From an uncultured Chlorobiaceae bacterium (GTDB lineage Bacteria > Bacteroidota > Chlorobiia > Chlorobiales > Chlorobiaceae), in the NCBI GenBank assembly GCA_903866255.1, contig CAIPMW010000071.1, forward strand, positions 1 through 43,765: a stretch of DNA of 43,765 nucleotides, in the 5' to 3' direction. Below, one piece after another: positions 1 to 35,724 of this stretch. Made by a program: the position numbers and the translations under genes. The notes under the pieces were generated by a model. It searched no databases. It was not told the origin of the DNA and was given only the letters and a program-made list of their open reading frames with translations. Within the stretch, counting starts at the first letter, position 1. Every line of letters begins with the position of its first letter.

Positions 1-3000
1 GAGCTGGGCGAAGAGTTGCAGGCCATACTGCGCCGATTCGTCGGAGCCGCGTCCGAAAGCCTCGTCGATGACCACAAAGCGGAAGGATCGGGAGCGCACG
101 GCACCCCATTCCAAACCGAACTGATAGGCAAGGCTGGCGGCAAGGACGGTGTAGGCGAGCTTCTCCTTCTGCCCTCCCGATTTGCCGCCTGAATCGGCGT
201 AGTGTTCATGTTCGCTGTCATCTTCGCGCCACCGTTCGCTGGCGGCAAAGACAAACCAGTTGCGCACATCGGTCACTTTGGCTGTCCAGCGCCGGTCGAG
301 GTCGGCATAAGCTTCACGGCCCTGGAAGCGGTCGATGATGCGCCGCACCTGGAGGAATTTGGCTTCTGAATATTGTGCGTCGTCAGAGCCGGTCAGCGAG
401 CCTTCGGTGCAGGCACGCAGCTCCGACTGAAAGTCACGGATGTCGGCATCGAGGTTCATCTGTGCTTCGAGGGTGATGTATCGGCCAGCATTGAAGTCGA
501 TCTGCGTGAGCGATTCATTGAGGCGGGTAATGCGCTCCTTGATGGTCTCCCGCTCGCGGGCAAGTTGCGACTGAAAATTGGCAACCTCACGAATGGTGTT
601 CTCGTTGAGCAGATCCTTGAACCGCCCCTCAAAGCGCGGCAGATCGTCGGCCCGGAGTTGCTCAAACATTGACCGATACTCCTTTCCTGCGGCAATGTTG
701 ACATCCACCTCGCGGGTCTCCAGTTTCCACTCCTCCTTGTACTCGGTCATCGCCCTGATGATCTTTTCGCCCAATCGGGAGAGTTTCCTGTCTTCGCTGT
801 CTATCTTAACCTGCAACCAGTCACGCATCTCCCGCTCGCGATTGTCGCACGATTCAACCGTCAGCGACTGATCGCCAAAAGCCTCCTGGCGCATGAGCTG
901 GAGTGCGGGGAAACGGGTGGTAAATTCCGCCCCCGCTTCAGTTAGCAGCGCTGCCGTCTGCTGCTGCAACTCCGTGATGACGCTGATTTTCTGCTCGATT
1001 TTTGACCGTTTATCCTTCCTTTCGTCAAGCTGCCGCTCCGTCTCATGCAGCTCCTGCTCCAGCACAGCAAGCTGCTCGGTCAGGGTTTGCAGGATATTGG
1101 AGGTGGCTTCAAGGTCGCGCTTTTCCGTCTCCAGCCTGGCGATGGCAACGGCGAGAGGTTGCCAGTCGAGATCGCTGAAATCGGGATACTCGTCAAGCTT
1201 GGAGAGGATGGTCAGCCGATCCTTGAGTGTTTTCTGCTCCTGCTGTAGCGAGCTGATGCGGCCAGCAAGTTTGGTCAGTTCGCTTTGCTGCTCTTTGGCC
1301 TTCTCTTCAAGGACGGCGATTTTTGCGGCATTGCTCCATCCGAGGACGTACCGGCTGCGGTCGTCGAGGCGGTGGCGGTCATCCTTTTCGTGCCGTTCAC
1401 CGGGCGACTTGATCTGTCCGGCCTGGGTGATCGCTTTTTTCTCCCTCCGAAACTCCTCCTGTGTTGTGCAGCAGACCAGATCGAAACGATGGGCCACCTC
1501 CCGTTCGAGCCAGTCGAAATAGGGAGAATCGCCTTTGATGGCGAGCTTGCGGCTGAGTGAGGCCGGATGGTCGGGCAACTGCTCGCTGCGAGAGAGCTGG
1601 CGCACCCGAAAATAGACAAGACGCCCTTTCAGATTGGTTCGCTCAACCCATTCGGCCACCTTCGGGTAGTGATGGTCAGGCACCAGCAGCGAGAGACCGA
1701 AGTTGCGGAGCACCCGTTCAATGGCTCCTTCCCAGAGCTGCTCTCCCTCCTGAACCTGAAGCAACTCGCCGGCAAAGGGCATCTCAACCTCCGCGAGATT
1801 TAGCGCCTTGCAGAGCGAGCGGCGCATGGCAATCTGTTTTTCATCAATATTGCTCATGCGGGCTTTCAGGCTCTTGATCTCGGCGCTCAACTGCTCATGC
1901 TCCTGACGCCCCTGGGTAAAGCGGACACCCTCCTCATTGAGTTCGTTTTGCACCCGCACTTCAGCCTCAGCAGTTACCTCGTGCATGGCTGCATGTCCGG
2001 CACGCTGCTGATAAAACTCCTCGGCGTTTGTTGCAGGATGCTCCCCAAGCTGGCCTGCCAGTTTTCCATATCGGGTTGCTTTCTGGTTGCGCCGTTCAAG
2101 CTCTTGCTGATGCTGCCGAATCTCCAAGGCGATACTCTCAATCCGGTCGCCGCCGTTTTCAGCGATGGTTCGGCGCAGCTCGCGATCACGTCCCTGCATG
2201 GTGCGCCGCTCTCCGTCCAGACGCTCAATAACGATCTGGTGACGGCTCAGCTCCTCATGCAGCGAGGCATGGCGTTTGTCGAGCAGTTCAAGTTTGAGGG
2301 AGGCGAACCAGGGGCGAAGGCAGTCGCGAGAGCCCCGCAGCTCTTCCGATCGGAGCGCCATAGCGTGGTGATTGTCGCAATCTGCCACCAGTGGGCCCAG
2401 CATCTCTATCTGCCGCTTTGCCTTGAGAACCGCTTCGTGCGCCCGGTTGAGATCTTCGAAATGCTGAATAAGGGCGGCAATGCGCGGTTCAACCGTGAAG
2501 GGCTCAAGCATGTGGAGGCGAACGAAATCGGTCAGGTTGCCCACCGACTTGAGCGAGACGGTTTGATGAAACAGCTCCAGCGCCTGCTCGTTCTCAATCC
2601 CGAAGCGTCGCCGGAACCAGGCTCCATAGGGTGGAAAGCTCTCAAACAGCTCAACACCAGCACCGCGAAGACGTTTGCGCAGGGTCGAAATCTCGGTGCC
2701 GAACGATGAAAAATCGCCAGCGATGGAGAGGTCGCCCTCATAGGCGGCATAAATGCGGGCAGGCTGTGCGGCATCCTTCATCCAGAAAATTTGTGCCAGA
2801 GTCACCGTTTTGTCGTACCCTTCGTTATGAAAGACACCGAGGATGACCGAATAACTGTTGGATTCGCGAAGGGCAACCGGCTTGGCACCGCCTCCGAGGT
2901 TCTCCTGCCGCTCCGACTTGAAGTAGCCCAGCACGTAGGAGCGCAGGGTGCGTTCACGGTTGTCGGCACCTGCCGCCTTGTTGTAGGCAATGCGCTGGCT

Positions 3001-3207
3001 TGGCACCAGCAGGGTAGTCACGGCATCGACCAGTGTCGATTTTCCGGAGCCGATATCTCCCGTGAGGAGGGCGTTTTTCCCGCCCAGTTTGAGCGTCCAG
3101 ACCCTGCCGTCGAAGGTGCCCCAGTTGAATATTTCAAGCCGTTGCAGGCGAAAACCGGCCAGACGGTCATCGGCAACAAATCCCATTTCCAGTGATTCAC
3201 TCATCAT
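1..3207 (-). CDS. jetC: Wadjet SMC-like ATPase JetC (3' end outside window)
   Basis: An open frame runs from the ATG at 3207 (a second ATG follows at 3204) to the window edge without a stop, giving at least 1069 residues. Near the N-terminus is the family-typical FNWGTF followed by Walker A GDIGSGKS (about residues 50-57). A long middle rich in charged and Gln residues fits coiled-coil arms. Near the window edge are the ABC signature SGGQKEK (about 1010-1016) and Walker [16 protein letters not shown] (about 1044-1058). In characterised Wadjet systems JetC is the SMC subunit that, with kleisin JetA and KITE protein JetB, extrudes plasmid DNA for cleavage by JetD. The start overlaps the stop of the upstream jetA-jetB chimera. 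Intact jetA and jetB lie 30 kb away on the same strand. jetD, if present, should lie beyond position 1. GC content is clearly higher than in the island interior. Confidence 0.93.
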
Positions 3208-3449
3208 CTTTCTCCATCGGTGGTATCGGTTGCTGCAAGGTATTTGTCAAGCTGGTTATCAAAATCGGCCAGCCATTGGGCAACGATAAATGCCTTGATC
3301 AGATCGGCCTGTGAGAGAATTCGCACATTGGGCACAATAAAGAGACTGCGCAGAAACCCGGCCACCAGCAGAGTATGCTGGGCGCACAGGACGCGCCAGG
3401 CAGGGTGGTTCTGACGGAGCAGGTTCAGGGTGGAGGAGTAGAGAGCCAA
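3204..3449 (-). pseudogene. jetA'-'jetB chimera left by an internal deletion
   Basis: This 81-codon frame starts at a TTG. Its first ~50 codons match the N-terminus of the intact JetA at 33901-35349 (STLNLLRQNHPAWR, VPNVRILSQADL). It then switches without a gap into the C-terminus of JetB (KAF..AQWLADFD..LD.YL). The whole middle of jetA and most of jetB are missing, and the join preserves the reading frame. The stop overlaps the jetC start (ATGATGA), as the normal jetB-jetC junction does, so the remnant may still couple translation into jetC. It cannot carry kleisin or KITE function. The direct evidence is the matching sequence in the intact genes; the regulatory role is inference. Confidence 0.85.
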
Positions 3450-3545
3450 AAGAGCAGCGTTGATATTTGGTGGAAAAAGTACCGCCTGAAGCGGGCTTCA
3501 TTTTGGGGTGAAGTTAAAGATTTTTCGGCGGTTTTCTTTCGGTTG
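3450..3545 (-). repeat. Duplicated leader region of jetA (left copy)
   Basis: The DNA upstream of the chimera matches the DNA upstream of intact jetA (about 35350-35445), including shared stretches such as GTGAAGTTAAAGATTTTT read on the plus strand. Similarity fades just beyond 3545, which marks the likely left boundary of the inserted island. If the jetA promoter lies here, it would now drive the chimera and jetC. I see no confident -10/-35 pair. Confidence 0.65.
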
Positions 3546-3876
3546 ACTTTATTTGTTATCCCGTCCTGGTCTGTAGGGAGTGAAAGCTGTTCTGGCTGAA
3601 GCTAAAAAAGTATTTTGTTGCAGCTTTGAGGTAATCATTGATTTCTCTATGAGCCGGTTGGATGATATATTTCTTTTCGGGAAGGAAGAAATATCAATAA
3701 ATTTCCTTCCTTTGAGGAGAGATATTGATAAAGAGGAGAGAGTGATTGACGAACCAAATGATTGCTGCCGGGTTATAGCGCGTAGTCATCTGTTTTGATG
3801 GACTGAAATTGTTTATTATACTCCAAAAAGTGGTTTTATTACAAAGCAAACCCTGTTCCAGAGGTCACTGGTAACG
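3546..3876. other. Intergenic, no convincing gene
   Basis: About 330 bases between the end of the jetA-leader similarity and the DUF4160 gene. A 72-codon plus-strand frame (3580-3798) exists but has no recognisable domain, no clear ribosome binding site and unusual composition, so I do not call it. Base composition changes here from GC-rich to AT-rich. Confidence 0.5.
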
Positions 3877-4134
3877 TTGTTCAAACAGCCGCGACTTTTT
3901 TGGTCGGGGGTTGTGTTTGTAGTTCTTGCTCACAGTCCGCCTCATTTTCATGCACAATATGGCGACAACAAAGTCACCGTTGAAATTCTGTCAGGAATAG
4001 TTGATGGTCGTTTTCCGAAGCGAGCCCTTCACTCCTTGATGGAATGGTATGAAATCTATAAGGACAATCTTCTTGATGACTGGAATCTGGCAGAAAGGCA
4101 TGAACCTTTAAACAAAATCCCGCCATTGGAGTAA
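3877..4134 (+). CDS. DUF4160 domain protein
   Basis: The core HSPPHFHAQYGD, followed by a segment with GRFPKRAL and ending in PLNKIPPLE, is typical of DUF4160 proteins, small (~80-90 residue) proteins found beside DUF2442 genes in toxin-antitoxin-like pairs. The N-terminus aligns in length with the family but its residues are degenerate (PRLFWSGVVFVV where the family has roughly SRFFG and aromatic residues). The only nearby start is TTG at 3877, so the start is uncertain and the gene may be decaying. It is followed after 5 nt by a DUF2442 gene, whose ribosome binding site GGAG lies within this gene's last codons. Biochemical function is unknown. Confidence 0.75.
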   Translation: MFKQPRLFWSGVVFVVLAHSPPHFHAQYGDNKVTVEILSGIVDGRFPKRALHSLMEWYEIYKDNLLDDWNLAERHEPLNKIPPLE

Positions 4135-4139
4135 AGATT

Positions 4140-4400
4140 ATGTTAGAAGTCATCAAGGCTGAATACATCGAAGGGTATCGGATACAGATTAGCTTTAACA
4201 ACGGTGCAAGCGGGGCGGTCGACCTGAAGGAGGCACTTTGGGGCACTATGTTTGAAAAACTGAAAGATTACAACACATTCAGGAAATTCGAAGTATCGGA
4301 CATCGTCCATACCATCAGGTGGGAAAATGATTCCGATCTGGCTCCTGAGTACCTTTATGAGAAAATGGTTGAGCAAGGCGCTGTAAACGGTCACGGCTGA
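4140..4400 (+). CDS. DUF2442 domain protein
   Basis: An 86-residue protein with the DUF2442 pattern: YRIQISFNNGASGAVDL, then LKDYNTFRKF, and near the end IRWENDSDLAPEYLYEK. Family members usually stop soon after this last motif. Here about ten extra residues (VEQGAVNGHG) run into the remnant of an oppositely oriented toxin gene, so the 3' end seems to have been created by a DNA join. The ATG at 4140 has a GGAG about 8 nt upstream. It forms a two-gene unit with the DUF4160 gene. The pair is toxin-antitoxin-like by genomic association in other bacteria; mechanism is not established from this sequence. Confidence 0.8.
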   Translation: MLEVIKAEYIEGYRIQISFNNGASGAVDLKEALWGTMFEKLKDYNTFRKFEVSDIVHTIRWENDSDLAPEYLYEKMVEQGAVNGHG

Positions 4401-4569
4401 ATTTATAGACAAAAACAGCAGCCGGATCACCTTTTTTTGGCTCACTCACAGTTGGATCTTTGATAATTTCAGCAATGGCATCATCAACATCAGCCTTCTC
4501 GTTGAGGTGCAGCCGCTTGTATGCTCGCCTGAAAAGAGTGCATTGATGAACCTGAATGTCGTTTTTCAT
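4315..4569 (-). pseudogene. RelE/ParE-like toxin, 3' truncated
   Basis: The frame starts at the ATG at 4569 (MKNDIQVHQCTLFRRAYKRL) and carries DPTVSEPKKGDPAAVFVYKF, a motif of RelE/ParE-superfamily toxins partnered with ParD-like antitoxins. Immediately after VYKF (about position 4400) the sequence stops resembling the family and continues as the antisense of the DUF2442 gene to a stop at 4315. The C-terminal third, which carries catalytic positions in RelE-fold toxins, is therefore missing. The start overlaps the antitoxin stop (ATGA), the usual arrangement of such pairs. It is probably inactive. Confidence 0.75.
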
Positions 4570-4796
4570 CAAGAACGATTTCCTTCCGGGACGAATGGTG
4601 TTGAGAGCGACTTTTCCTCTGCCCGTGCAACCAGGGTATCCCGAACAAAATCGATTGGCAAATCTGGATTGTCGAGAGCCGTCCGTCCGATCATCGCCCA
4701 AAACTCAATCTGCCCGGCAATGGTGCGATGCTCAGCCTTGGCCTGTGCTCTTGCCTGACCATACAAGGTATCATCTATTCGTACTGGCATTCCCAT
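4569..4796 (-). CDS. ParD-like antitoxin
   Basis: A 75-residue protein beginning MGMPVRIDDTLYGQARAQAK, with AEHRTIAGQIEFWAMIGRTA. This is the pattern of the ParD-like antitoxin family (ribbon-helix-helix fold) found upstream of RelE/ParE-like toxins. The start may be the ATG at 4796 or at 4790. It overlaps its toxin partner by 4 nt. Because the toxin is truncated, this antitoxin appears orphaned; it could still repress its own promoter or neutralise related toxins, which is inference. Confidence 0.75.
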   Translation of the reverse strand: MGMPVRIDDTLYGQARAQAKAEHRTIAGQIEFWAMIGRTALDNPDLPIDFVRDTLVARAEEKSLSTPFVPEGNRS

Positions 4797-5137
4797 AATT
4801 TATAACATTGCTACAAGTGTAGTGAAAAGTGACGCATCAAACAAATACACCACAAAATTTGATCTCTTCCTTCGAATGATTTCCGATACTCATAAAGTCT
4901 CTATATCATAAAAAAGAAATAAGTTAATGATTTTTTTAAATGGCTGACAATATTTTTTTTGTAATAAAGAGTTATTATTCTGTTGTATATTACCCGTATA
5001 TCTGATGGGTCGATATGCAAAGGAAGATTTCTGAGAGGGAGTACCGCTGGTTCAGGAGGTTGTGTGCTAAACATCAAACTCAGGATAAACTGTATTGAGC
5101 GACTGCGTGGATAGCCATCATAAAATAAACTTATAGA
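4797..5137. other. AT-rich intergenic region
   Basis: About 340 bases between divergently read toxin-antitoxin genes. It is very AT-rich and should contain the promoters of the ParD-like antitoxin (leftward) and the toxin-like gene (rightward). A 27-codon frame at 5015-5098 has no recognisable content. No RNA gene or repeat is evident. Confidence 0.4.
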
Positions 5138-5710
5138 TTGATTGTGATAAAGCTTGTTCGTATATTTCCGCACGAAGGTTCAGGTTTGTTTGCCGTTCAT
5201 TTTCCAGAAAAGCCGTGTGACGAATTTCGAGCGTTGTTTGATTTTTGGAGTGATCCCGAGTTGCTTGAGAAATTTTTTGAGGCTAATACAAGTGATTTAC
5301 AACAATCGCGATATCGCTATCCTTCGATTGAAGATGCTGTATTATGGACAATAGAGGAGGCTCAATTCCTCCTGAAAGTTTTGTATAAAAGAGCTCAACA
5401 AGGACAGAGAGATCCATCCGGTGCTTTACAAACCCTGTTCAGGCCGCTTGGGCCATCAGATGCCCGCTCTCTTTCCTGGCAACGTAGTAAGGTGTATGGT
5501 CGTCACCACAAAGGTTGGCTCAGGGTGTATGCTGTTCGTTTGAATGCAAATACCTTTATTGTGACCGGAGGTGCCATTAAGTTGACTCAAAGGATGGAGG
5601 AACGAAGTCATACCGAGTGTGAGCTTGTCAAACTTGAAAAGGTTAAAGAGTTTTTAAGAAGAAACGGTATTCATGAAGGCGATTTTGAGGTGTTAAAGAT
5701 CAATCAATAA
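5138..5710 (+). CDS. Putative toxin partner of an XRE antitoxin
   Basis: About 190 residues, starting at TTG 5138 or GTG 5144; no ATG fits. The N-terminal part (GSGLFAVHFPEKPCDEF followed by FDFWSDPELLEKFF) and the C-terminal part (FIVTGGAIKLTQRM) resemble a family of ~190-residue proteins seen directly upstream of HTH antitoxin-like genes, especially in Bacteroidetes and Chlorobi. I recognise it from this pattern and from context, not from a known active site. The 8-nt spacing to the XRE gene implies co-transcription. It could equally be a non-toxic partner. Confidence 0.6.
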   Translation: MIVIKLVRIFPHEGSGLFAVHFPEKPCDEFRALFDFWSDPELLEKFFEANTSDLQQSRYRYPSIEDAVLWTIEEAQFLLKVLYKRAQQGQRDPSGALQTLFRPLGPSDARSLSWQRSKVYGRHHKGWLRVYAVRLNANTFIVTGGAIKLTQRMEERSHTECELVKLEKVKEFLRRNGIHEGDFEVLKINQ

Positions 5711-5718
5711 AAACAGAA

Positions 5719-6126
5719 ATGAAAATGGCCGTTGATACTCTGGAAGAGAAACTTGCAGCCATAACTGCAAAAGAGTGCTCGGGATGGTTAGATGATGCGA
5801 AATACAGAATAGAGAATGAGAGATGGTTGAAACATTCACAGTTCATCGCGTTGCGAATTCTGCGGACGTTACGAGCAAAAAATATTTCACAGAAAGAGCT
5901 TGCTGAAAAAATTGGTGTGTCACCCCAGCACGTTAATAAAATTGTCAAAGGGAGGGAAAACCTGACCCTCGAAACAATTTCAAAACTTGAAGCTGCCCTT
6001 GAAATTGCGCTCTTGATGGCTCCTTCACTGGCGATCGATACAGAAACAGAAATTGGGCAACCTTATATGCCGAATCACAAAACCATGTTGGCAACAGCAA
6101 AAAAACAGCACTCAACACCGACATAA
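5719..6126 (+). CDS. XRE-family helix-turn-helix antitoxin-like protein
   Basis: A 135-residue protein with a clear HTH around residues 55-80: NISQKELAEKIGVSPQHVNK followed by IVKGRENLTLETISKLE. The N-terminal ~45 residues (AITAKECSGWLDDAKYRIEN) are typical of longer antitoxin-type XRE proteins. ATG at 5719 or 5725 are both possible. It lies 8 nt downstream of the putative toxin gene and would be expected to bind the shared promoter and repress it. The C-terminal tail after the HTH is polar and probably flexible. Confidence 0.75.
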   Translation: MKMAVDTLEEKLAAITAKECSGWLDDAKYRIENERWLKHSQFIALRILRTLRAKNISQKELAEKIGVSPQHVNKIVKGRENLTLETISKLEAALEIALLMAPSLAIDTETEIGQPYMPNHKTMLATAKKQHSTPT

Positions 6127-6493: not shown

Positions 6494-6506
6494 CAATACG
6501 AGCGGC

Positions 6507-7793
6507 TTACTTTAGCAACAGCCACCGGTAGAGCGGCATGACCGTAACGGCTATTCCATGATGCTCAAACTCTTCCGATCCGCTGAGTGTGATAATCAGG
6601 CCACGGCGCAAACCGAACTTGTTGCAGCACTCCGTCAGACCGCGAAGCTCCCGGTGACGCGTTTTTGCATCGCTGAGGGTTGCTGAAACCTGAATAGCCT
6701 CCGTCACATCAAAACCTGTTTTGACAATAAAATCACACTCCGATTTATCCTTGAAAAAGTAGATCTCCCTTTCCCGCCGCTTGAGTTCCAGAAAAACTAC
6801 CTGTTCCAGAGCTTTGCCGGTATCGTCCGAAAATTTGAAATCAAGGGCATTCAGCAGCCCGGTGTCTATCACATAGACCTTTCTTTCGCCAAGTTCCCGA
6901 TCAACAAGCGAGCTGGAATATTTTCTCAGTATTTGTGCCAGAGAGATGTTTACAGCAGCTTCGAGGTAATCGTACAACTGGTTCTTGCCGATCTTGAACC
7001 CGGACGACTTCAATTCGTTGTAGATATTGTTGACCGAAATCTGCTTTGTGGCCGATGAGATGATACGCTTCAGAAAGAATTTTAGCGCAGGGAGGTTTTT
7101 GATTTCGTACCGCTCAACCAGGTCACGGTAAATCATGACATTGAAATACTCCTGCAACACCCGGTTACGCAACGCATCATCATAGCCGATCACCTCCGGA
7201 AAACCACCATGCTTGAGGTAGTCTTCCAGATGATGATTGATGAGAGCGATGGAGCGTGTGCTGTTCAGGTCTGGCGTAACACCCTTGAAGGTCAGGTACT
7301 CACTGAAAGAGAGGGGAAACACCTCATAACTGATGGTTCTGCCTCGCAGGCTGGTGGCGATGTCGCTGCTCAGGAATCTGGCGTTTGAACCGGTAAGAAA
7401 GATGTTTTTCGTGCCACAGTCATAGATACGCCGCACAAATTTGTCCCAACCCGAAATATTCTGGATTTCATCGAAGAAAAAATAACAACCATCAAGGAGC
7501 ATCTCAGGGTAGAGCTCCTGGTAAGCCTGCAAAAGAAGATCCAGCTCCTCTGTTTTCAATTCAAGCCGCTCATCTTCAAAGTTGACATAGAGGATTGAGG
7601 TTATCGGCACTCCCTTTTGCAAGAGGTCACTGATGATGTTGAAAAGCAAAGAGGTCTTGCCGCTACGCCGCACTCCCACAAGGGTAATGATCTTGCCAGT
7701 ATCCAGAGGCACCTGCAACGAGCGCCTTTTCAGGGCTGGCAGCGCAGTGACATGGAAGTCTCTGATGATCTGCTTTATCGTTTCTTTCTTCAT
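6507..7793 (-). CDS. AAA ATPase with DUF4143 C-terminal domain
   Basis: A 428-residue protein with Walker A GVRRSGKT (residues 40-47), Walker B CYFFFDEIQ (Asp108, Glu109) and sensor-like FLTGSNARFLS. The C-terminal half has ELKRREREIYFFKDKSECDF, a PD-(D/E)xK-like segment found in DUF4143 proteins. These AAA_14/DUF4143 proteins are abundant in bacteria with many toxin-antitoxin loci; their function is poorly defined, and a nuclease-like role is suggested by the fold only. It is intact. Two degraded copies of its 3' portion lie at 8777-9064 and 10048-10244 on the same strand, so this locus has been copied or rearranged repeatedly. Confidence 0.88.
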   Translation of the reverse strand: MKKETIKQIIRDFHVTALPALKRRSLQVPLDTGKIITLVGVRRSGKTSLLFNIISDLLQKGVPITSILYVNFEDERLELKTEELDLLLQAYQELYPEMLLDGCYFFFDEIQNISGWDKFVRRIYDCGTKNIFLTGSNARFLSSDIATSLRGRTISYEVFPLSFSEYLTFKGVTPDLNSTRSIALINHHLEDYLKHGGFPEVIGYDDALRNRVLQEYFNVMIYRDLVERYEIKNLPALKFFLKRIISSATKQISVNNIYNELKSSGFKIGKNQLYDYLEAAVNISLAQILRKYSSSLVDRELGERKVYVIDTGLLNALDFKFSDDTGKALEQVVFLELKRREREIYFFKDKSECDFIVKTGFDVTEAIQVSATLSDAKTRHRELRGLTECCNKFGLRRGLIITLSGSEEFEHHGIAVTVMPLYRWLLLK

Positions 7794-8658: not shown

Positions 8659-8776
8659 GAAAAATTCTGTTTTGTTCCTGTCAGCATGAGAATATAAAAA
8701 ATGCCAGACTTTGTCATGACGAATAGAGTGATTATCAAATGTGTTATAGATGGTGCCGATGTATAAATGAGCAGCT

Positions 8777-9064
8777 TATTGCAGTAACAACCACCGGTAG
8801 AGCGGCATGACCATAACGGCTGTTTCATGATGCTCAAACTTTTCTGCTCCGTTATGCCTGATCATCAGGCATGGCGCAATCCGAACTTGTTGCAGCACTC
8901 CGTCAGGCCGCGAAGCTCCCATTGCCCTGTTGTTGCATCGCTGAGGGTTGCTGAAACCTGAATGGCCTCCGTCACTTCTAAACCTGTTTTGACAATGAAG
9001 TCACTCTCCGATTTATCCTTGAAATAGTAGATTTTCTTTTCCCGCCGCTTGAGTTCCAGAAAAA
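8777..9064 (-). pseudogene. DUF4143 ATPase 3' fragment (copy 2)
   Basis: About 290 bases match the 3' end of the intact ATPase gene (6509-6800), including the segments encoding ELKRREKKIYYFKDKSESDF and VTEAIQVSATLSDA. A changed stretch near 8860-8880 introduces a premature stop, and the match ends abruptly at about 9064, where a vapC remnant in the opposite direction begins. It is a broken copy. Confidence 0.8.
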
Positions 9065-9850: not shown

Positions 9851-10047
9851 CAAACGCTATGGCCAATAAGGGGTTAGGTGGTTTTCGTAGCATAATTCTC
9901 ACACCAACTTGTTGGTTTTAACGCTCAAGGAAAAATTTTTCAGCGACAATTTTGGATGATGGACAGCTGATTGTGCATGGAGAGTTATAAGAATCCTTGT
10001 CAATGCCCAGTTTTCAATTTGATTTGACACGATATGAACTGAGTAGA

Positions 10048-10244
10048 TTATTGCAGCAACGACCAGCGATAGAGCGGCATGACTGTAACGGATATTCCAT
10101 GATGCTCAAACTCTTCCGATCACACAATGAAGTCACACTCCGATTTATCCTTGAAAAAGTAGATCTCTTTTTTTCGATGTTTGAGTTTCAGAAAAACAGT
10201 CGGTTCCAGAGCTTTGCCCGTATCGTCTGAAAATTTGGAGTCAA
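10048..10244 (-). pseudogene. DUF4143 ATPase 3' fragment (copy 3)
   Basis: About 200 bases match the 3' end of the intact ATPase (6509-6855) with an internal deletion: the sequence jumps from the equivalent of about 6595 to about 6727. It begins with the same TTATTGCAG-type end as copy 2. No long frame survives. The flanking stretches 9851-10047 and 10245-10324 contain no gene I can support. Confidence 0.75.
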
Positions 10245-10330
10245 GCCCATCAACATCTAAATCCTATTTGTGACAAAATAGTAAAGTGGTTTTTGCTTGT
10301 ACAGAAAGTAGATCTCGTTATTAATTGGTT

Positions 10331-32998: not shown

Positions 32999-33241
32999 TC
33001 ACAATTTTAAATCCCGCATCCACCCCGGGAAAGCCGAGCTCCAGTTCGGCATAAAACGAGGATACAGCTCAAACCGCTGCGGATAGGTCACTACCACATT
33101 CGCTGCATCATAATCCACCTTCTCCCAGCGGCAAAAAATCCTGAACAACTGATTCTCCGTCAATGCAAGCTGAGCCGCCTTCTCCGCCAGGAGCGTAATC
33201 AAAATCTGAAACTCCGTATCAATCGTCACACCAGCCAGCAA
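32999..33241 (-). pseudogene. 3' fragment of an unrecognised GC-rich gene
   Basis: An 80-codon frame (QLALTENQLFRIFCRWEKVD, then TYPQRFELYPRFMPNWSSAF, PGWMRDLKL). Its composition is GC-rich, like the Wadjet genes and unlike the island. It begins right where the jetC stub ends, with no proper start or ribosome binding site, so it looks like the tail of a larger gene joined to the stub. I do not recognise the family. The gap 32878-32998 holds nothing supported. Confidence 0.45.
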
Positions 33242-33276
33242 ACGGCAACAAATCCCGTTTCAACCGCCTCACTCAT
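33242..33276 (-). pseudogene. jetC 5' stub
   Basis: Directly after jetB, an ATG at 33276 opens a frame reading MSEAVETGFVA, matching the start of the intact JetC ([11 protein letters not shown]). The DNA stays similar up to GGATTTGTTGCCG and then changes to unrelated sequence; a stop follows a few codons later. It overlaps the jetB stop by 8 nt, which shows the ancestral jetB-jetC arrangement. This is the right-hand breakpoint of the split. Confidence 0.85.
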
Positions 33277-33904
33277 CCTTTCCTTCCATCCCTTTTACCG
33301 GTCGTTGCAAGTATTCGTCAAGCCGTTTGTCAAAATCGGCCAGCCATTGGGCATCGATAAATGCCTTGATAATCCGGCGCACCTCGATCATCTGCCTCTC
33401 TCCGCGCAACCGGCGGATAAAACCAAGATCGGCGATTTTATTCAGCGTCGAATCAACCTGGTCGATCAACTTGACCTCATTGCTGGCGGCGGGCAGGAAA
33501 ATCCTGATCAGCTCAACCACCTCATCCCGCGAAAGAATCAGACGGGTGTCGCCAGCGCCCGCATCAAATTCGGCCAGTTTTTTGCGCAAGAGCGCCAGAA
33601 GCAGGCTGACTGGGTAGGAGAGCTGCCTGCGTGCCATCAGTCGGGGCGTGCTGTTCGCTCCCTCCGTTTCGCCTTCGGAATTTGATCGCAAAAAAGCGTA
33701 CCCTTCCGACTCATCGAGAATCAACTCCAGACCAAGCACCGCGACGTAATCGCGAACGGCAGCCATCAGGTTGAGTAATGAGCCCCATAATGCAGGGTTA
33801 TCCTCCTGGTAGATCACCCCTTTCAACAGGGGAACCACGATTGACGCGAGCTCCTGACCATGAAAAGGGGCTCCGCTGTTTTCACTCACTGTATGATTCA
33901 TCAT
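33269..33904 (-). CDS. jetB: Wadjet KITE subunit JetB (DUF4194)
   Basis: 211 residues with the DUF4194/MksE-like pattern: VVPLLKGVIYQEDNPALWGS, then LIDQVDSTLNKIADLGFIRR and IIKAFIDAQWLADFDKRLDE. KITE proteins are winged-helix dimers that bind the kleisin in SMC complexes. The start (ATGATGA) overlaps the jetA stop. A second copy of its C-terminal codons is found in the chimera at 3204-3449. Its normal downstream neighbour jetC survives here only as a stub; the complete jetC is 30 kb away. Confidence 0.9.
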   Translation of the reverse strand: MMNHTVSENSGAPFHGQELASIVVPLLKGVIYQEDNPALWGSLLNLMAAVRDYVAVLGLELILDESEGYAFLRSNSEGETEGANSTPRLMARRQLSYPVSLLLALLRKKLAEFDAGAGDTRLILSRDEVVELIRIFLPAASNEVKLIDQVDSTLNKIADLGFIRRLRGERQMIEVRRIIKAFIDAQWLADFDKRLDEYLQRPVKGMEGKDE

Positions 33905-35349
33905 CCGTTTCTTAATAAGATAATACGCGGCAGGGTGGCCTCACGGGTTATGCCCGTCGAACTCTGCCATTGCACCTGCTCCTCTACCCCTTCATCCACC
34001 GTCGTCCGTGGCCACTCTCCGGCAAGCTGCAGATAGGCCACCAGCTCGGCCAGCCCGTTACGCAGAGGGTGACGCACAACCACCTCCCCAAGGGTGACCT
34101 GACTGCGCATCTGAAGTTCCAGACGGATATTTCGCAACAGCTCCGCCCGGTCGACCACCACCTGGGCGTAGAGCACGGCGGTATCAATCTCCGCATCGCC
34201 TTCATCGAGGGCCACTCCTGCAATCAATGGCTTGAAGGGAGGGCGATAGAGCGTTCTTTCGAGAGGCAGTTCGATGGCCGCAGAGGATCCGTCAAGAGGC
34301 ATGAAGCCGCCTGACGGGAGATCAACGCGTAAATCAAGAGCCTGTGTTTCGATGTTGTGCAGGATATCCATGATGCGCCGATTTTCAAGCCACGCCTTGT
34401 CATCAAGAAAGCGGCGCAACTGCTCGGAGAGTCGGGCCACCGTGCGCTGGGTATGCTCTCCGGCTTCAAGCCAGTCGTAGTGAACACGCCTCAGACGGTT
34501 GTCGGGGCGCATGGAGAGAATCGGCGGCAGGGCCAGCACCTCCTCCAGAAGCAGGCTCAGCTCCTCCTGGCGTGACTGCGACATGATAAAGTCCCAGAAT
34601 GCCCGGAAACTTTTCCCCTGATCCGAATCGGCAATGGCATCACGTTCGCCCATGATCTGCTCCAGCAGCGCCCCTTTGGCCCCCTCCCAAAGGGCAATGC
34701 GCTCACGCACGCGGCGGTCGAGGGTGCGAAAGTTATGCTCCACCTCGCGAAAATCGGTCAACAACTCACGGGCCAGTTGCAGAAACTGCTGGAAGCGATC
34801 CTTCAGGCCGGTATCATCAAGCAGCGATATCTCACCGGCACGGATGCGGGCAATTTCGGCATCAATATCGTCACGCCGCTTTTGCAGCTCGGCAATCCGC
34901 ACCTCCGGGTCAGCCTGGCTTCCCGTGCTCATCTGCCGCAACAGTTCAAAGAGGGTAAGCAGTCGAGACTCGGTGCCCACAAAAGCACGCTCAGTCAAAC
35001 TCTCCAGCCAGGCCAGCGCCTTTTCCGTGGAGGCCGTCAGGTCAAAGTGAGGCTCATCCGTGCCGTCCGGATAGAATTTGCGCAGCCACCCCTTGTCGTT
35101 CTCGGCCCACTCATTCAGGTAGCTTTGCGCCGTACCGGGAAACTGGTCGGCACCGAGCTGCTGGCGCAAGGCAAAAAGCTCATCCTCCAGTGCCTCAACC
35201 AGATCGGCCTGCGAGAGAATCCGCACATTGGGCACAATAAAGACCCGGTGAAGAAACCCGGCCACCAGCGGCGCATGCTGGGCGCACAGGAGGCGCCATG
35301 CGGGGTGGTTCTGACGGAGCAGGTTCAGGGTTGAGTAGTCGAGAGCCAA
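33901..35349 (-). CDS. jetA: Wadjet kleisin JetA (DUF3375)
   Basis: 482 residues if TTG 35349 (MALDYSTLNLLRQNHPAWR) is used. The frame extends to 35493, but the extra 48 residues are absent from the family, so I take the TTG, which is also the start conserved in the chimera. Features are the DUF3375 N-terminus, VFIVPNVRILSQADLVEALE, and helical middle sections (REVEHNFRTLDRRVRERIAL). JetA is the kleisin/MksF-like subunit that bridges JetC heads. It is coupled to jetB by a 4-nt overlap. No strong ribosome binding site is seen before the TTG. Confidence 0.9.
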   Translation of the reverse strand: MALDYSTLNLLRQNHPAWRLLCAQHAPLVAGFLHRVFIVPNVRILSQADLVEALEDELFALRQQLGADQFPGTAQSYLNEWAENDKGWLRKFYPDGTDEPHFDLTASTEKALAWLESLTERAFVGTESRLLTLFELLRQMSTGSQADPEVRIAELQKRRDDIDAEIARIRAGEISLLDDTGLKDRFQQFLQLARELLTDFREVEHNFRTLDRRVRERIALWEGAKGALLEQIMGERDAIADSDQGKSFRAFWDFIMSQSRQEELSLLLEEVLALPPILSMRPDNRLRRVHYDWLEAGEHTQRTVARLSEQLRRFLDDKAWLENRRIMDILHNIETQALDLRVDLPSGGFMPLDGSSAAIELPLERTLYRPPFKPLIAGVALDEGDAEIDTAVLYAQVVVDRAELLRNIRLELQMRSQVTLGEVVVRHPLRNGLAELVAYLQLAGEWPRTTVDEGVEEQVQWQSSTGITREATLPRIILLRNG

Positions 35350-35724
35350 AGGGGTGCAGCGTTGATTGTGGTGGAAAGAGCGCCGACGGAAGCGGGCTGG
35401 TTTTGGGGGTGAAGTTAAAGATTTTTTGGCGGTTTTCTTTTGCCGGAGATCAAAAAACTCTCCTTCACAAGCGGAGGCTCTGGCCAGTTGCATTGATAAT
35501 AATGTGATGCTATCTCTTGTCAGTGCACCTCAAGCTATTCTTGCCCATTGGTGTCAATAATCCGTAGTCGATATCTGAAGCAGCCCCAATAATAAGTGAA
35601 TCATAACCCTATGACATCAATAATGTGCATATTGGGCTCTCAACAAAAATAGTATACATTGCCGCAAGGAGCGATAACGGCAATCGGTATAATGAAATAC
35701 TGACAACTGACAACCAAAATATAA
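35350..35724. other. Intergenic region between jetA and the P-type ATPase
   Basis: About 375 bases. The part nearest jetA (35350-35445) is the right copy of the leader repeated at 3450-3545. The remainder is AT-rich and must contain the divergent promoters of jetA and the P-type ATPase. No RNA gene or repeat is evident. Confidence 0.5.

Follow-up and report, generated by a model that had tools for sequence, protein, structure and literature searches.

The 81-codon open reading frame in front of jetC in the stretch of DNA analysed here (the window, 43,765 nt, contig C71 of the uncultured Chlorobiaceae genome G000) is a fusion of the beginning of jetA to the end of jetB, two genes of Wadjet, a defence system directed against plasmids. 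The fusion is shared among species of the genus, several genomes of which carry their Wadjet genes in a split layout, and jetA, jetB, jetC and jetD are all under purifying selection between the split genomes. We interpret this mini-ORF as the long-lived scar of an in-place deletion of ~1.8 kb, which would now be merely a passive 5′ leader of jetCD; we give this reading a probability of about 0.52.

The jetA–jetB fusion and its intact counterpart

The window genome is a 2.8-Mb draft of 117 contigs and contains several jet copies. The relevant features of the window are as follows:

1..3204, minus strand: jetC (type I JetC, DUF3584/MukB-like; PADLOC E=0), 3′ end cut at the contig end
3204..3299, minus strand: jetB part of the mini-ORF, 20 codons in the jetB frame (from codon 179), then 11 shifted codons
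3212..3215, minus strand: GGAG, Shine-Dalgarno-like, 7 nt before the conserved jetC start
3300..3449, minus strand: jetA part of the mini-ORF, codons 1–50, counted from the TTG at 3449
3450..3545, minus strand: jetA-type leader before the chimera (~95 nt), a conserved block whose reading frame is not conserved
33226..33276, minus strand: jetC stub after intact jetB, ~11 jetC-like codons with a stop at codon 17, read from the sequence
33269..33904, minus strand: intact jetB, 211 aa (PADLOC JetB1 8e-88)
33901..35349, minus strand: intact jetA, 482 aa, TTG start assigned by comparison (PADLOC JetA1 7.5e-224)

The mini-ORF runs from 3449 to 3204 on the minus strand, begins with the TTG that is also the jetA start and ends with a TGA at 3206–3204. 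Fifty jetA codons are joined directly and in frame to jetB codon 179. Both halves match intact genes of the window: positions 3291–3539 align with 35191–35440 in jetA (86% over 251 nt, E 8e-72) and positions 3171–3299 with 33243–33370 at the jetB end and jetC start (82% over 131 nt, E 1e-24). PADLOC still scored the 81-aa product both as JetA (2.9e-11, residues 6–53) and as JetB (9e-7, residues 30–76). Measured against the intact window genes, the deletion is estimated at ~1.8 kb. An earlier note on this DNA had proposed a deletion-made fusion of the two genes, which the matches of both halves and the presence of the fusion in six of 65 genomes bear out. It had also described jetA codon ~50 as fused to the last ~30 codons of jetB without a change of frame. 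The join is indeed in frame, but a +1 insertion near TACC-TTGCAG moves the last 11 codons of the mini-ORF into frame +1 relative to jetB, so that only 20 codons are read in the jetB frame. An ATG-started ORF at 3501–3259 uses a different frame and proved to be unrelated to the mini-ORF. Microhomology was considered as a factor that could have imposed the in-frame junction and was rejected: five-mers shared between the jetA start and the jetB end occur in phase no more often than out of phase (27 versus 30 for the window genes and 17 versus 26 for G021), and no homology was seen by eye at the break itself.

The contig ends within jetC, at base 1, which leaves the last jetC codons and the link of this gene to jetD outside the window. 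We compared the jetC start in 27 loci, selected for a long open jetC; this set leaves aside broken copies and a number of intact copies from other genomes (e.g. G008 and G062). The conserved start is the second ATG (3204–3202), kept in all 27 loci, while the first codon varies. The stop of intact jetB overlaps this conserved start by 8 nt (ATGAGTGA), whereas the TGA of the chimera overlaps it by 1 nt, forming TGATG at 3206–3202; the stop–start overlap that the earlier note had described as kept is thus present in an altered form. It is the kind of overlap expected of a translationally coupled leader ORF. Stops at the jetC start are found at offsets 1 or 4, and 8, so that in two of the three frames the sequence by itself yields an overlap. 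The GGAG is retained in 16 of 17 loci (AGAG in G003), and since this site precedes the conserved ATG, JetC could start without coupling. A masked jetC start that requires coupling found no support among 17 loci, in which the predicted start accessibility of split and contiguous copies overlapped widely.

The intact jetA and jetB genes lie ~30 kb from the chimera and jetC on the same strand. Like the copy in the window, other jetAB-only loci have jetC stubs after jetB, of varied length. All four Wadjet genes are present in the window genome: jetA, jetB and the 3′-cut jetC in the window and jetD on contig C33, where it is unlinked to the window jetC. The best PADLOC matches are JetA1, JetB1, JetC1 and JetD1, all of type I, and the Pfam domains are DUF3375, DUF4194/MksE, AAA_29 with SbcC_Walker_B, and JetD_C. 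We also observed that the segments 3171–3299 and 33243–33370, each composed of a jetB tail and a jetC head, are direct repeats at the two ends of the 30-kb interval, and the operon would be rejoined if they recombined. Contig C33 contains three full-length jetD genes, a frameshifted jetC and several jetC fragments within ~21 kb (L009, L010), including a fused jetC/jetD fragment at L009:13560–14249.

Split loci and ancestry of the fusion

Eight of the 65 genomes of the genus (G000, G003, G012, G014, G018, G031, G080 and G088) carry jetAB apart from jetC: jetA and jetB, both full length, occupy one site, and a jetC of full or nearly full length occupies another. The distance between the two parts is 30 kb in G000, 12 kb in G003, 7 kb in G012 and ~2 kb in G080, the jetC of which has a frame break near its end; in G014, G018, G031 and G088 the parts lie on different contigs. 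Full-length adjacent jetA, jetB, jetC and jetD were found in 19 of the 65 genomes, one of which (G005) has a TGA flagged in jetA. Other operons, e.g. those of G081, G077, G073 and G010, are contiguous but broken or cut by a contig end. Between split genomes, jetA had a mean omega of 0.039, jetB of 0.110 (15 pairs each) and jetD of 0.168 (10 pairs, which exclude G000, as the window has no linked jetD). For jetC, omega ranged from 0.064 to 0.107 among five genomes with the chimera (10 pairs, G006 and G072 included). When a simple adjacency check for jetA and jetB was applied to the best 80 of 122 JetC loci in named genomes of the genome_contigs collection, 19 failed. Nine of these were the Chlorobiaceae cases treated here; the other ten were mostly contig ends, one of them likewise in Chlorobiaceae, with a few insertions or undetected jetA genes. 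Two loci are possible splits outside Chlorobiaceae: L147 (Azonexus), with jetB and jetC ~3 kb apart, and L125 (Accumulibacter), with jetA and jetB ~4.5 kb apart.

The jetA–jetB fusion is contiguous in G000, G031, G088 and G072 and has suffered further deletions in G006, which lost another 66 bp in frame (22 codons), and in G003, where a combined deletion and insertion left the ORF open with ~34 codons missing. The junction CTG/ATC (the slash marks the join) is identical in G000, G031, G088 and G006, and in G072 GTT replaces ATC. The C-terminal frames of the chimera differ between genomes; in G031 and G006 an apparent compensating −1 returns the tail to the jetB frame. No intact jetA or jetB was detected in G006 and G072, so the partner half does not always accompany the chimera. 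On a tree of the leader and jetA start (30 loci) the chimeras require 2 label changes compared with 5.6 in shuffles, none of 500 being as low, and the AU test did not reject a single chimera clade (p 0.29). The jetC tree (27 loci) calls for 4 changes compared with a shuffle mean of 5.6 (31 of 500 as low), and in it the contiguous operons of G076 and G081 fall among the split ones. The shared junction and the patterns of the two trees fit one old fusion that was followed by exchange or re-fusion.

The leader before the chimera is 86% identical to the intact jetA leader (within the 3291–3539 match) and can be aligned with the leaders of other jetA loci (35 sequences), in agreement with the earlier statement that the jetA leader was retained. 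That it was copied, as also proposed, is doubtful. We compared the flanks of 22 loci and report matches for pairs that include a chimera: G000, G088 and G003 have chimera flanks homologous to those of jetA in G080 and G012, the G072 flank matches the jetA flank of G021 (90% over 735 nt) and that of G031 the jetA flank of G077 (87% over 402 nt), while the flank of G006 had no match among the 21 other loci compared. G003 and the window have ~2 kb upstream of the chimera in common, in three pieces (window 3824–6102, 81–92%). Because the upstream flanks are homologous to the intact jetA flanks of relatives, the fusion probably arose by deletion within the operon at its own site, and the leader looks original rather than copied. 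Several origins from three flank contexts were also considered, but the shared junction and the tree favour one origin; the fusion in G072, with its GTT, could be a separate event.

Of 37 loci, with the chimeras counted in, 32 start jetA with TTG and 5 with ATG; loci with a leader running off the contig had been dropped from this set, 35 of the 37 were aligned and 30 entered the tree. An upstream coding extension of jetA was rejected as an explanation of the leader: the frame is unconserved and contains stops in many species, and the TTG/ATG start is preferred. A conserved RNA element was rejected as well, for although single-sequence folds suggested a short hairpin with a run of T's after it in many leaders, RNAalifold found no consensus pair in the 35 aligned leaders. 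A scan of 3190–4000 revealed no sigma-70-like promoter inside the leader. The sole match on the strand of the chimera lies at 3844–3815, ~370 nt upstream of the mini-ORF start, and the two matches found on both strands of the scanned region compare with 0.9 expected. A 54-nt segment resembling the jetA leader was observed at G000:C33:8844–8897, upstream of the ORF L009:8302–8790 (PIN-domain-like by eye), and comparable matches are present in G006 and G018.

Possible roles of the mini-ORF

According to the reading that we favour, a type I Wadjet operon would have lost the greater part of jetA and jetB through an in-frame deletion in place, and a second jetAB copy would have survived elsewhere and lost its jetCD. 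The leader and the stub would act solely as the 5′ leader of jetCD, with transcription entering via the old jetA leader or from further upstream, and the GGAG inside the jetB tail would initiate JetC at the conserved second ATG. Ribosomes that end at the overlapping stop would aid JetC at most slightly, the fused peptide would have no function of its own, and JetAB from one locus would assemble with JetCD from the other. The fused peptide is barely constrained: omega of the chimera was 0.26–0.90 (mean 0.55) in the same 10 pairs that gave the jetC values above; G003 was omitted since few codons are left after its extra deletion. Third codon positions were the most changed in only 3 of the 10 pairs, and the pairs with G088 showed an excess of third-position change in 2 of 4 cases. 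The divergence of the leader (16–23%) and of the mini-ORF (12–21%) is about equal. Several observations weigh against the passive reading: the frame is open in all six chimeras and was spared by the extra changes in G006 and G003, the tail of G031 and G006 is back in the jetB frame, the mean omega of the chimera lies below 1, two of the G088 pairs have the third-position excess, the chimeras cluster little on the jetC tree, the flank of G006 has no match, the leader showed no promoter, and the partner half was not detected in G006 and G072.

The main alternative, which we regard as possible but distinctly less probable, is that the mini-ORF is translated from the old jetA TTG and brings ribosomes to the overlapping jetC start; frame and overlap would then be selected while the amino acids are free to change. 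The earlier note had likewise suggested that selection kept the mini-ORF as a coupling leader. Such selection would be consistent with the chimera frame being open in all six genomes. In a neutral simulation along the jetC topology, in which G003 was retained and indels as well as any change predating the fusion were ignored, all six frames stayed open in 2.7%, 3.0% and 4.0% of 3000 runs with three root sequences. However, when G072 was left out five open frames were obtained in 6.8%, and the divergence may partly predate the fusion; we consider this result suggestive, not decisive. All chimera ORFs have their stops at offsets 1, 4 or 8 relative to the jetC start, but two of the three frames would end there by sequence alone, and jetC has its own GGAG. 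The split jetCD loci of G018, G014, G012 and G080 contain the jetB tail alone, without the jetA part. In two of them a new upstream ORF extends into the jetB tail and has its stop at the jetC start, an arrangement in favour of coupling: in G018 it is a toxin-like ORF fragment (by eye; L044, L046, L041 set), and in G012 a 61-codon ORF that shares an ATGA overlap with an acetyltransferase-like gene (by eye; L049:7155–7533). In contrast, the toxin-like ORF upstream in G014 is frameshifted and stops early, although a different ORF of 39 codons at that locus has its stop at offset 1. That translational coupling is selected for is possible but unproven. A toxin-like join similar to that of G018 was also seen ahead of a jetC remnant in G006 (same locus set).

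A more elaborate version of the split, which appears improbable to us, is that it is reversible: Wadjet would alternate between contiguous jetABCD and separate jetAB and jetCD, with cargo between the jetB-tail/jetC-head direct repeats, and the stub would be selected as a coupling leader that keeps the dosage of JetC in step. If this were true, repeat recombination could restore the whole operon, perhaps as in G076 and G081.

Also improbable is a dead locus, in which the surrounding jet genes are decaying, jetCD and its leader are irrelevant and the frame is open by chance. The many broken jetC/jetD pieces on contig C33 and the lack of a detected intact jetA in G006 and G072 would agree with decay, but omega of all four genes lies far below 1 between split genomes, and jetC is open and stop-free over 800 codons in all 27 loci that were chosen. 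A function of the 81-aa peptide as a small protein in its own right, such as a JetA–JetB mimic regulating the complex, is very unlikely: PADLOC still scores it as both proteins and omega is below 1 in 10 of 10 pairs, yet the third positions lack a consistent excess of changes, the C-terminal frames vary, and G006 and G003 have dispensed with 22 and ~34 codons, respectively. An assembly artefact uniting two jet copies, as might be feared in a 117-contig draft with several such copies and a window ending inside jetC, can be practically dismissed, as independently assembled genomes of other species share the junction and differ from one another by substitutions.

Relation to known systems and neighbouring genes

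According to PMC10586767, Wadjet types are set by similarity together with operon organisation, and restriction of circular plasmids needs all four Wadjet proteins; a further Wadjet study, PMC12287153, deals with clustered genes. JetA, JetB, JetC and JetD of the window genome are best matched by the models of type I (JetABCD/MksFEBG/EptABCD), but the standard single operon of this type is absent: jetAB and jetC are apart, a jetA–jetB fusion stub precedes jetC and a jetC stub follows jetB. Within the collection of papers that was searched, none turned up on Wadjet in Chlorobium, in green sulfur bacteria or as a split operon. Evidently, a defence complex with subunits that are usually encoded side by side can be divided and still be maintained. 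Some detection tools demand clustered genes, and such tools would miss a split Wadjet or label it incomplete.

Translationally coupled gene pairs are characterized by TGATG or ATGA overlaps and by leader ORFs. The TGATG shared by the mini-ORF and jetC resembles these pairs; here, however, the leader ORF is a deletion product that encodes a barely constrained protein, and jetC keeps its Shine-Dalgarno-like GGAG. Duplication followed by complementary loss is known as subfunctionalisation, and the two jet loci, each of which retains the half that the other lost, are comparable to it. They differ in that an operon for the subunits of one complex was affected and that stubs were left at both breakpoints. 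Scar and stubs at the two breakpoints record how the split arose, and the scar represents a natural test of whether translation of a leader matters for JetC.

Between the two jet loci, the region 10325–32877 of the window consists mostly of same-strand genes with FHA, VWA, HD-CE/HSP90-like ATPase and AAA_21 domains, to which protein kinases, a PP2C phosphatase and a ClpB-like ATPase can be added by eye; it is possibly a stress or defence island. The segments 6500–6796, 8769–9064 and 10033–10245 are partial repeats (83–91%) of an ATPase-like gene, the long ORF at 6507–7793.
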